A program made the translations under genes and the position numbers. Positions 1 to 6,976 of a DNA stretch of 35,565 bases are shown one piece after another (the stretch's first letter is position 1; every line of letters begins with the position of its first letter). Origin of the DNA: an uncultured Nocardioidaceae bacterium (GTDB taxonomy: Bacteria > Actinomycetota > Actinomycetes > Propionibacteriales > Nocardioidaceae); NCBI GenBank assembly GCA_902805845.1, contig CADCUI010000042.1:1-35565 (forward strand). Direction: 5' to 3'. Under the pieces are notes generated by a model. It made no database searches. It was not told the DNA's origin and saw nothing but the letters and a program-made list of their open reading frames with translations.

Positions 1-2379
<2,379 letters not shown>

Positions 2380-2394
2380 CGCCCGGGAGCCGAG

Positions 2395-2472
2395 CCGCCC
2401 ACCATGTCTGGCCGACCCGCCCACCATGTCTGGCCGACCCGCCCGGCATGTCTGGCCGACCCGCCCGGCATG
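2395..2472. repeat. 22-bp tandem repeat, about 3.5 copies
   Basis: Three full units start at 2395, 2417 and 2439 and a partial one at 2461. Each begins CCGCCC and contains CATGTCTGGCCGAC; units 1-2 have ACC before the ATG and units 3-4 have GGC. The array begins 16 bases after the aconitase stop and ends about 25 bases before the SOS box. It does not form an obvious terminator hairpin, although GGCC cores are self-complementary. Its role is unknown; it looks like a short intergenic repeat that spreads by slippage. Confidence 0.85.
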
Positions 2473-2496
2473 CTGAGCGAATCGACCTGACCGCGT

Positions 2497-2512
2497 TCGA
2501 ACTCGTGTTCGA
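2497..2512. promoter_or_regulatory. LexA (SOS) box
   Basis: TCGAAC-TCGT-GTTCGA is an exact match to the actinobacterial/Gram-positive LexA consensus TCGAAC-N4-GTTCGA; the palindrome extends to 18 bp, TTCGAACTCGTGTTCGAA (2496-2513). It covers the -35 region and lies 8 bases upstream of the -10 box of the gene at 2533, so bound LexA would block that promoter. The match and its placement are seen directly; LexA control is inferred. Confidence 0.88.
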
Positions 2513-2520
2513 ATGCAGGC

Positions 2521-2526
2521 TATGCT
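2521..2526 (+). promoter_or_regulatory. -10 box of the SOS-controlled small gene
   Basis: TATGCT fits TANNNT and is followed by 6 bases and the ATG at 2533, the spacing expected of a leaderless transcript. The LexA palindrome occupies the -35 position. Confidence 0.7.
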
Positions 2527-2532
2527 GCCGGG

Positions 2533-2904
2533 ATGACTTCGCTCGTGACCCCGCCGGGATGGCCGCCCCTGGTCCGACCTCCGGGTGCGCCCGCCTGGGA
2601 GCGCACGGCGAGCGCCTGGCTGCTGGACATCTGTCCGCCGGAGTACCGCGGTTACCCCGTCCTGCGACGCCACACCGTGGTGCTCGCCCGACTTGCCGTG
2701 CTGCACGTCGAGGCCTGCCAGGCGGCCGTACGCCGAGGGCTCAGCGAGGCCCGTGCGACCCTGCGGCAGGTCGCCGACGGCGACACCATCGAGGCGGCGG
2801 TGACGACGCTGCAGGCCGAGGAGGCCCGGTTGCTGGCCGAGAGGCGGGCCGCCGGGCTCGTCGAGGAGGCGTTGCGCGGACGGCGGTTCGTCGCTCGGCT
2901 CTGA
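2533..2904 (+). CDS. Small conserved-type hypothetical protein under SOS control
   Basis: A 123-residue soluble protein of unknown function. I recognise no catalytic motif. The N-terminus is Pro/Trp-rich ([17 protein letters not shown], residues 7-23), followed by [18 protein letters not shown] and then two helical stretches rich in Ala, Arg and Glu (about residues 50-110) that could form a coiled coil, ending RGRRFVARL. The ATG is chosen because a TATGCT -10 box ends 7 bases before it; no Shine-Dalgarno sequence is present, as expected for a leaderless message. A perfect LexA box overlaps its promoter, so it is probably induced by DNA damage. It stands alone between aconitase and dxs; the dxs promoter starts about 90 bases further on. 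From memory, similar proteins occur in Nocardioides genomes without a function. The coding call is good; the role is unknown beyond the inferred SOS link. Confidence 0.85.
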
Positions 2905-2990
2905 GAGCCGCCCTGGCCCGTCGAGGCCCGTCACGAGCACCGTCACCCGGTCCGAGCGCCGACAGCCGGGCCGGGCTGGGAGCGGGGCCT

Positions 2991-2996
2991 TAGACT
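2991..2996 (+). promoter_or_regulatory. -10 box for dxs
   Basis: TAGACT fits TANNNT. Initiation 7-9 bases downstream would begin the message near 3003-3005, giving a leader of about 30 bases with GGGAGG before the ATG at 3035, or a leaderless message beginning at the GTG at 3005. Confidence 0.5.
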
Positions 2997-3034
2997 GGCG
3001 ATCCGTGTCCATCGAGCTGGGAGGGCAGTCGCTC

Positions 3035-4948
3035 ATGGGTCTCCTCGAGTCGCTGACCGGTCCACGCGACCTGCGCCACCTCAGCGACGACGACCTTGAC
3101 GCGCTGGCCACCGAGCTCCGCGACCGCCTGGTGACCACCTGCGCGCCGCGAGGCGGACACCTCGGCCCCAACCTCGGGGTTGTCGAGCTCACGCTGGCGA
3201 TCCACCGGTGCTTCGAGTCACCGCGGGACCGCATCGTGTTCGACACCGGGCACCAGGCCTACGTGCACAAGATGCTCACCGGCCGGGCGGGTGACTTCGC
3301 CTCACTGAAGCAGGAGGGCGGGCTCTCGGGCTACCCCAGCCGGCAGGAGTCCGAGCACGACCTCGTCGAGAACTCCCACGCCTCCACGTCGCTGTCCTAC
3401 GCCGACGGCCTGGCAAAGGCCTACCATCTCCGCGGCGAGGACCGGCACGTCGTCGCCGTGATCGGCGACGGCGCGCTGACCGGCGGCATGGCGTGGGAGG
3501 CGCTGAACAACATCGCCTCGACCGACGGCGCCGCCGAGAACCGCAAGCTCATCATCGTCGTCAACGACAACGGCCGGTCCTACACGCCGACCGTCGGGGG
3601 TCTCGCGAACCACCTCAACTCGCTGCGGACCGACCCCCGTTACGAACCCGTGCTCGACCTCGTGAAGCGGCGGCTCCAGGGGGTGCCGGGGGTGGGGCCG
3701 GCGGTCTACGACGCGCTGCACGCGGTGAAGAAGGGCATGAAGGACGCGCTGGCGCCGCAGGGGCTCTTCGAGGACCTCGGGCTGAAGTACGTCGGCCCCG
3801 TCGACGGTCACGACCGGGCGGCGATGGAGCAGGCGCTGCAGCACGCGAAACGCTTCAATGGCCCGGTCATCCTCCACGCGATCACCAAGAAGGGCTTCGG
3901 CTACGGCGCCGCCGAGCGGCACGAGGCCGACCAGTTCCACTCGCCGGGACCGTTCGACGTCGAGACCGGGCTGGAGGCGGTCCGGGGGCTCATCTGGACC
4001 GACGTCTTCGCCGACGAGATGCTCCGCATCGGACGTGAGCGGCCGGACGTCGTCGGCATCACCGCAGCCATGCTGCACCCCGTCGGGCTCAACCACTTCG
4101 CGCACGAGTTCCCCGACCGCGTCTTCGACGTCGGGATCGCCGAGCAGCACGCGGTGACCTCGGCGGCGGGTCTGGCGATGGGTGGGCTGCACCCGGTCGT
4201 CGCCGTCTACGCCACCTTCTTGAACCGGGCCTTCGACCAGATCCTCATGGACGTCGCCCTGCACCGGTGCGGCGTCACGTTCGTCCTCGACCGAGCCGGT
4301 GTCACCGGTGACGACGGGGCGTCCCACAACGGCATGTGGGACATGTCGATCCTCCAGGTGGTGCCGCGCCTGCGGATCGCCGCTCCTCGCGACGGCGCCC
4401 GGCTGCGCGAGCTGCTGCAGGAGGCCGTCGAGGTGTCTGACGCCCCGACCGTCGTCCGCTTCCCCAAGGGGCCACCTCCCGCCGACATCGACCCCGTCGA
4501 CCGCGCCGGTGACGTGGACGTGCTGGTCCGCACCGGCTCGGCCGACGTACTCATCGTGTCGGTGGGGGCGATGGCCACCACCTGCCTGGAGGTGGCCGAC
4601 CGGCTCGTGGACCAGGGGATCGGGGTCACCGTCGTCGACCCCCGCTGGGTCAAGCCCGTGTCCCCCGTCCTGGTCGACCTCGCCCGTCGGCACCGGCTCG
4701 TCGTGAGCGTCGAGGACAACGGCATCGTCGGTGGCTGCGGCTCGGCGCTGCTGCAGACCCTCAACGAGGCGCGCGTCGACACGCCGGTGCGCCTGCACGG
4801 CATCCCGCAGCGGTTCCTCGACCACGCGAAGCGTGCTCGCATCCTCGAGCAGCTGGGGCTGACCGCGCAGCCGCTCGCGCTCAGCATCGTCGAGGACCTC
4901 ATGGCCCTCGACCGGGGCGAGAGCCTCGTCCACGTGGATAGGGCATGA
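3035..4948 (+). CDS. dxs: 1-deoxy-D-xylulose-5-phosphate synthase
   Basis: Condenses pyruvate and glyceraldehyde 3-phosphate with thiamine diphosphate, the first step of the MEP route to isoprenoids. The 637-residue product matches the family length. The N-terminus [17 protein letters not shown], the substrate-domain [23 protein letters not shown], the ThDP/Mg motif [16 protein letters not shown] (about residues 144-158), and the pyrimidine-domain [14 protein letters not shown] and [18 protein letters not shown] are all present. I chose the ATG at 3035 because it gives the usual N-terminus and has GGGAGG 10 bases upstream; a GTG at 3005, ten codons earlier, lies 8 bases after a -10 box and is an alternative. 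Its stop overlaps the next gene's ATG (ATGA), so the PAC2 gene is translationally coupled. Very secure. Confidence 0.97.
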
Positions 4949-5868
4949 CGGAGCCTGCGCGCTTCGTCCACATCGTCGACGAGGTCGGGGAGCTCGCGAG
5001 CCAGGGTGCGGCGGGTCCTGTCATGGTGATGGCGCTCGAGGGCTTCCTCGACGCGGGATCAGCGGCCCGGCTGGCGGCCGAGCACCTGACCGCGCAGTCG
5101 TCCGGGCGGGTGGTGGCCAGCTTCGAGATCGACGCGTTCTACGACTACCGCGCGCGCCGCCCGCCGATGGCCTTCGTGGAGGACCACTACGAGGCGTACG
5201 TCGCCCCCAGGCTGGTCGTCCGGGTGATGCACGACTCCACCGGGACGGCGTACCTCCTCCTCACGGGGCCGGAGCCCGACACCCACTGGGAGGTGTTCGC
5301 GCGGTCGGTGCGCGAGGTCGTCGAGCACTTCGGGGTCCGCCTGACCGTGTCGCTGGGCTCGGTGCCGATGGCCGTGCCGCACACCCGCCCGGTGATGGTC
5401 ACCCACCACGCCACCCGGTCGGGGCTCCTCTCGGCGGAGAACATCTGGCGCGGCACCATCCAGATCCCGTCCAGCGCGCAGGCGCTGCTCGAGCTGCGGC
5501 TGGGGGAGTGGGAGCACGACGCGATGGGCTTCGTGGCACACGTGCCGCACTACGTGGCCCAGGTCGACTACCCGGCGGCCGCCGTCACTCTCGTCGAGAG
5601 CCTCGAGGTGGTCACCGGACTGCAGTGGCAGCTCGGTGCGCTGGAGGACACCGCCCGCACCAGGCTGGCGGAGATCGCTGCTCAGGTCCAGGAGTCCAGC
5701 GAGGTGCTGCAGGTCGTCCAAGGGCTGGAGCAGCAGTACGACGCGTTCGCCCGCGGCGACGACCAGGGGCCGCTGCCCCTCGCCGAGGAACGTGACCTGC
5801 CGACGGCCGAGGAGCTCGGCGAGGAGCTGGAACGATTCCTGGCGGGGCTCGACAGCGACGACGACTGA
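4945..5868 (+). CDS. PAC2 family protein
   Basis: A 307-residue protein with the PAC2 (proteasome assembly chaperone 2) fold, an ATP-grasp-like/Rossmann-type domain found in actinobacteria whose role is not firmly established; a link to proteasome assembly or protein turnover is suggested only by the family name. Typical features are [17 protein letters not shown] near the start, [15 protein letters not shown] (about residues 52-66), [13 protein letters not shown] and [13 protein letters not shown] in the middle, and a helical acidic C-terminus ([27 protein letters not shown] region). The ATG overlaps the dxs stop by four bases, which fixes the start and suggests co-transcription with dxs. 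Family call is good, function open. Confidence 0.88.
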
Positions 5869-6862: not shown

Positions 6863-6976
6863 CGAGTCGGCGCTTGTGCACACGCGGCGCGTGCACAAGC
6901 GCCGACTCGGCACGGTTTGCGCGTGCACAAGCGCCGACTCGGCACGGTTTGCGCGTGCACAAGCGCCGACTCGGCA
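6863..6976. repeat. 19-bp inverted repeat plus 32-bp tandem repeats between convergent genes
   Basis: The element GTGCACAAGCGCCGACTCG occurs on the + strand at 6891-6909, 6923-6941 and 6955-6973 with an exact 32-base period (units contain GGCACGGTTTGCGC between the elements), and once inverted at 6863-6881. The inverted copy and first direct copy form a perfect 19-bp stem with a 9-base loop. The block sits between the ends of two convergent genes, so the hairpin could terminate transcription from both sides. It also looks like a repetitive extragenic palindrome. It is not a CRISPR: the spacers are identical 13-base sequences. Confidence 0.88.

Follow-up and report, generated by a model that had tools for sequence, protein, structure and literature searches.

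The open reading frame of 123 codons at 2533-2904, here called X together with its protein, is probably a LexA-repressed, DNA-damage-inducible gene of this uncultured member of the Nocardioidaceae, as judged from sequence comparison. Control of X by LexA is in itself very likely, and induction by damage follows if LexA acts here as it does elsewhere. The window, that is, the whole stretch of 35,565 nt that was analysed, contains a single perfect LexA-type site, at 2497-2512, in front of X. Predicted LexA control is a lineage-specific state within a protein family that extends across the class.

The LexA box and the promoter of X

The features of the locus are the following:

73-2379, + strand: upstream neighbour, aconitate hydratase AcnA, identified by profile matches; its N-terminal part precedes the window
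2496-2513, strandless: extended arms TTCGAAC-N4-GTTCGAA, 18 bp, read from the sequence
2497-2512, strandless: LexA box (SOS box) TCGAAC-N4-GTTCGA, TCGAACTCGTGTTCGA, with 0 mismatches in both arms, kept upstream of orthologues
2521-2526, + strand: probable -10 element TATGCT, from a reading of the sequence and the recurrence of TA-N3-T in orthologous promoters
2533-2904, + strand: X, 123 aa, of an uncharacterised actinomycete family, from the ORF list and homologue searches
3005-4948, + strand: downstream neighbour, 1-deoxy-D-xylulose-5-phosphate synthase (dxs), identified by profile matches

With the two profiles used, the AcnA match begins at positions 119 (of 463) and 201 (of 888). Two ORFs that overlap X (181 aa on the + strand, 2448-2993, and 327 aa on the - strand, 2263-3246) were set aside because the conserved frame is the one of 123 aa, which shows 54-83% identity for the other 27 family members in the alignment. 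A 22-bp tandem repeat of 3.5 copies (94% match) occupies 2389-2466 and ends about 30 bases 5' of the LexA box, and a perfect 32-bp tandem repeat of 2.8 copies is found at 6887-6976 of the window.

The preliminary description of this DNA had claimed a perfect LexA box, which is confirmed without a mismatch; the source genome (3,279,375 bases in 91 contigs) has four such boxes and none of the reversed control pattern. An 18-bp palindrome had also been claimed. Its arms do reach 2496-2513; the palindrome is interrupted at its centre by TCGT, which is not self-complementary, leaving 16 of 18 positions palindromic. The stretch between box and gene reads ATGCAGGCTATGCTGCCGGG and is followed by the ATG at 2533. 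The positions proposed for a TATGCT promoter, with its -35 region overlapped by the box and its -10 element six bases before the ATG, proved correct: for a 17-base spacer the -35 hexamer falls at 2498-2503, within the box, and is a poor -35 match. A sigma-70 consensus scan of 2380-3010 returned no promoter. The case for one is therefore made by the -10 element and by a recurrent TA-N3-T element 5-12 bases past the box, present in 41 of 95 orthologous promoters versus 6% in shuffles.

A LexA dimer bound to 2497-2512 would cover the -35 region and block the promoter of X. After DNA damage, self-cleavage of LexA stimulated by RecA would free the promoter, and the transcript would start at or near the ATG, making it leaderless. 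Its product is predicted to be a soluble, mostly helical protein of 123 aa. Both LexA (L138) and RecA (L141) are encoded in the source genome.

Another of the perfect boxes lies 5' of a cassette encoding DUF6504, HEPN_SAV_6107 and DnaE2. A further one (locus L049, 1501-1516) spans the ATG of a gene that runs for 502 codons or more and had no Pfam match at E 0.001; we take this gene to resemble the DUF222/HNH family, for which the Pfam scan gave no confirmation. The fourth (locus L052, 1501-1516) is situated within a DUF4383 coding region, perhaps by chance. When one mismatch is allowed, the genome has 20 sites versus 10 for the control pattern. All but two of these 20, on contig 86, were inspected. 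Several fall in coding frames; the one-mismatch sites in promoters include recA, uvrA and the interval between lexA and a gene with a LysM domain. In that interval, on contig 53 (L138, 1089-1241), four one-mismatch boxes are found, and the LysM gene is divergent from lexA.

The motif published for LexA of Actinobacteria starts with TCGAACa, as does the box of X (PMC2248561), and the SOS boxes described for Streptomyces venezuelae are of the TCGAAC type (PMC9380542). The source genome resembles the S. venezuelae regulon in that its lexA, recA, dnaE2 and uvrA bear such promoter sites; it differs in X, since the main-text table of selected regulon members has no gene identifiable as X (PMC9380542) and the box is missing at the Streptomyces-like orthologues studied here. 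A limited literature search found no published study of a Nocardioides LexA regulon.

Conservation of the box among orthologues

At all 104 homologue loci of the Nocardioidaceae, the 300 bp preceding the aligned start were scanned for the best site, and a stretch of up to 300 bp starting 100 bp into the gene served as control. Perfect boxes were found at 73 loci, where 0.04 would be expected in 104 x 300 bp at genome density; 22 loci had one mismatch, 4 had two and 5 had three or more. Boxes with at most one mismatch thus occur at 95 of 104 loci and at none of the 104 controls (1 with two mismatches, 103 with three or more). Family f76, the second one studied in this order, had 44 matches, and every one was inspected: 16 sites were perfect, 12 had one mismatch, 12 had two and 4 had three or four, so that 28 of 44 are within one mismatch versus 0 of 44 in the control (2 with two mismatches, 42 with three or more). 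A set of 96 boxes with at most one mismatch, comprising 94 boxes from the Nocardioidaceae, with that of the window omitted, and 2 of family f6, is identical in 94-96 sequences at 10 of the 12 arm positions and in 91 and 85 at the other two, and the flanks are mixed. The conservation table leaves out rows L048, L126 and L137.

At several loci (L018, L022, L074, L085 and others) there are possible earlier starts, about 14-23 codons upstream, which begin with MF or VF and add a Pro/Arg-rich extension. At L124 an ATG sits within the box itself. In the genera g8, g17 and g23, all six genomes (L080, L081, L083, L100, L102, L114) retain X with a lost or degraded box (2-5 mismatches); these genomes constitute a natural experiment on losing LexA control.

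Outside the order, 73 class-wide loci were studied, consisting of the 13 best matches and 60 genomes picked to spread over families, among which f92 is the commonest with 20 loci. Ten had a perfect box, 10 had one mismatch, 3 had two and 50 had three or more, compared with one control at two mismatches and 72 at three or more. The positives within two mismatches cluster in f92 (20/20), f117 (1/1) and f6 (2/3), and 17 of the 20 loci of the distant f92 are within one mismatch. Two Nonomuraea sequences (L243, L245) share the features of f92, which is therefore probably Streptosporangiaceae. The remaining 49 loci, from 25 families and with 4 loci of the Streptomyces-like f3 among them, have no box within two mismatches, so that 25 of the 28 families sampled outside the order are box-free. 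In f3 as a whole the box was found in 0 of 13 loci (0/9 and 0/4). Further loci of the family-stage scan gave a box in f6 (2/3) and none in f5 (0/1) or in a weak hit from another class-level group (0/1).

A check for the box upstream of orthologues had been proposed. Its conservation is borne out in the family, in f76 and in f92, and does not extend to the class-wide set, most of whose sites have three or more mismatches. The claimed membership of the SOS response is likewise upheld for some lineages and not for the whole protein family, the Streptomyces-like loci being box-free. Other actinomycete lineages encode the same protein without a LexA box.

A tree built from 93 X proteins served to map the state of the box; it included 13 of the 104 family loci (f1), 10 of the 44 of f76 and 3 of 9 of f3, and left out 10 of the 73 class-wide loci as near-copies or very divergent. 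At least nine changes are required. Most deep forks are poorly supported, and gain and loss of the box are therefore indistinguishable on this tree. A TTGTC-type motif characterizes the RecA-independent damage promoter; upstream of 19 loci (18 without a box within one mismatch, and L124 with its one-mismatch box) nothing better than three mismatches to this motif was detected.

The X protein and the DnaE2 cassette

Homologues of X were detected in 104 of 197 family genomes and, with the single sequence as query, in 15 of 396 genomes of the phylum. A profile of 38 rows found 87 of 196 genomes of the order and 152 of 394 of the class, the latter representing 69 of 138 genera; the order and class samples partly overlap the family, as they include Nocardioidaceae genomes. 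Named relatives with X comprise MAGs of Nocardioidaceae and Marmoricola together with Nocardioides jiangsuensis, at whose orthologue (L032) the box is perfect. In one family genome (G033, contig 1, about 5177-5544) X is present as two overlapping pieces in different frames.

The protein had been described as 123 residues with no recognised domain, and a search of Pfam and NCBIfam with the window protein indeed gave nothing at E <= 1. A match to Pfam ThcOx by 9 of the 38 members (best E 0.00084) was treated as chance, and so was the best hit of a PDB sequence profile search (E 0.024). The best NCBIfam match over the 38 members is a capsid protein, in one member at 0.016. A phage origin was rejected, as no match exists in 50,697 phage records and PHROGs gave only weak ones (best 0.0051, 5/38 members). 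In a plasmid collection, five records showed partial matches below 60% identity; in four of them the best site within 700 bp upstream has 1, 2, 2 and 2 mismatches, counts that come without a control.

Eleven positions are invariant in the 38 members, namely W10, P11, V14, W22, A26, W29, P35, L51, R74, L100 and A113. An AlphaFold model built from five sequences is helical from residue 22 and of low confidence (mean pLDDT 65.7, pTM 0.43), and Foldseek found no fold match for it in the PDB (best E 3.7). The mean hydropathy of X is -0.03. Its pI is 10.0 in the window protein and ranges from 6.1 to 10.1 in the eight orthologues examined, so that charge provides no argument for DNA binding.

The cassette with DnaE2 offers the closest comparison. 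X shares with the DnaE2 mutasome and its DUF6504 and HEPN_SAV_6107 companions a LexA box in the source genome and a largely common presence across the family. One may ask whether X is a functional partner of this mutasome (DnaE2 plus accessory proteins), needed for translesion synthesis and lost after loss of the cassette, a proposal that we regard as rather doubtful. Searching the 197 family genomes with a 400-aa DnaE2 segment at E <= 1e-80, a cut-off that divergent copies may escape, gave DnaE2 matches in 79 genomes, and the DUF6504 protein was found in 94. X occurs in 74 of the 79 dnaE2-positive genomes and in 30 of the 118 without a dnaE2 match, the distribution being 74 with both, 30 with X only, 5 with dnaE2 only and 88 with neither. 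The five dnaE2-only exceptions all come from assemblies that are incomplete or fragmented (77-93% complete, 150-540 contigs), and genus g7, with 71 genomes, has none (37 both, 14 X only, 20 neither). The raw association (Fisher 2.7e-23) ignores kinship. X and DUF6504 occur together in 89 genomes, X alone in 15, DUF6504 alone in 5 and neither in 88; some genomes scored as X only by the dnaE2 cut-off do have the DUF6504 gene.

A lexA tree of 41 genomes was used for correction, in which the 40 g7 genomes had been picked so that 18 lack X, 8 have X only and 14 have both X and dnaE2. X changes five times on it and DnaE2 six times. Only two independent X pairs lie on supported branches, too few for a sign test; in these DnaE2 is concordant in 0.7 on average and never opposite. 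After tree correction, the raw link between X and dnaE2 does not support a claim. A match to lexA is present in 189 of 197 family genomes. In the tree set, the LysM gene near lexA was found in 17 of the 18 genomes that lack X and in 22 of the 23 that have it. This persistence implies that the SOS system is retained where X is absent, and the retention of the LysM gene in such genomes speaks for a tie of X to the mutasome. Against such a tie stand the 30 family genomes that keep X without a dnaE2 match. All eight X-only genomes of the tree set retain a perfect box, which argues that LexA control is kept for X itself. Unlike a cassette member, X is encoded at another locus (contig 42, versus contig 14 for the cassette) and not in that operon. 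It shows no similarity to the HEPN protein of the cassette, and DUF6504, HEPN, polymerase and LysM are all absent from the families matched by the 38 members.

Other readings and the possible role of X

The neighbourhood of X bears on a second alternative, in which LexA binds, its control is incidental and X is a housekeeping protein of an acn-dxs locus. Of 117 loci across the class, 57 have a match to acn and/or dxs no more than 1.5 kb from X, a sign of one old locus, and most of the loci examined outside the order have no box. This alternative is unlikely nevertheless. In f92, acn and dxs are both absent within 1.5 kb in 20 of 20 loci, yet all have a box within two mismatches; neither gene is near X in 18 of 30 family loci; and a signature of 12 bases has been conserved over a long time.

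SOS checkpoint proteins that slow cell division include SulA in E. coli and the LysM-domain inhibitors ChiZ, DivS and YneA, and these proteins are unrelated between phyla. X, as a small single gene under a LexA box, resembles them and might by analogy be a cytosolic protein of this kind, lacking the LysM domain of the ChiZ/DivS/YneA type. We consider this quite improbable: a LysM gene distinct from X is already encoded in the genome, divergently from lexA and with intervening boxes, at the position that the SOS division inhibitor usually takes in actinobacteria; and X is box-free in many lineages, which would bear a cost if it were a division inhibitor made constitutively.

That the box is a chance palindrome or the site of another regulator was rejected as extremely improbable on the genome-wide counts and the orthologue conservation: sites with up to three mismatches do abound in the window (43 versus 16 expected), so that weight can be given only to perfect or near-perfect sites in promoters, and the box of X is a perfect one in promoter position, conserved in orthologues and not in their controls, with near-identical sites at lexA and recA.

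For X as a LexA-repressed gene, the favoured role, put forward speculatively, is that of an adaptor in DNA-damage tolerance. The Trp/Pro-rich N-terminus (W10, P11, V14, W22, A26, W29, P35) and the conserved arginines R46, R53, R74 and R105 resemble a binding adaptor. Such an adaptor would work in the same situations as the LexA-linked DnaE2 cassette without strictly needing DnaE2. On a broader and equally tentative proposal, X might found a class-wide, undescribed actinomycete family of damage-tolerance adaptors, in which LexA control has been gained or released several times and which acts with the error-prone polymerase machinery in some or all of its range.

X is a conserved predicted LexA target outside Pfam and NCBIfam, whose family reaches half of the genera sampled from the class. 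The box-bearing and box-free lineages provide a natural comparison, and X offers a concrete lead to an unexplored part of the bacterial DNA-damage response.
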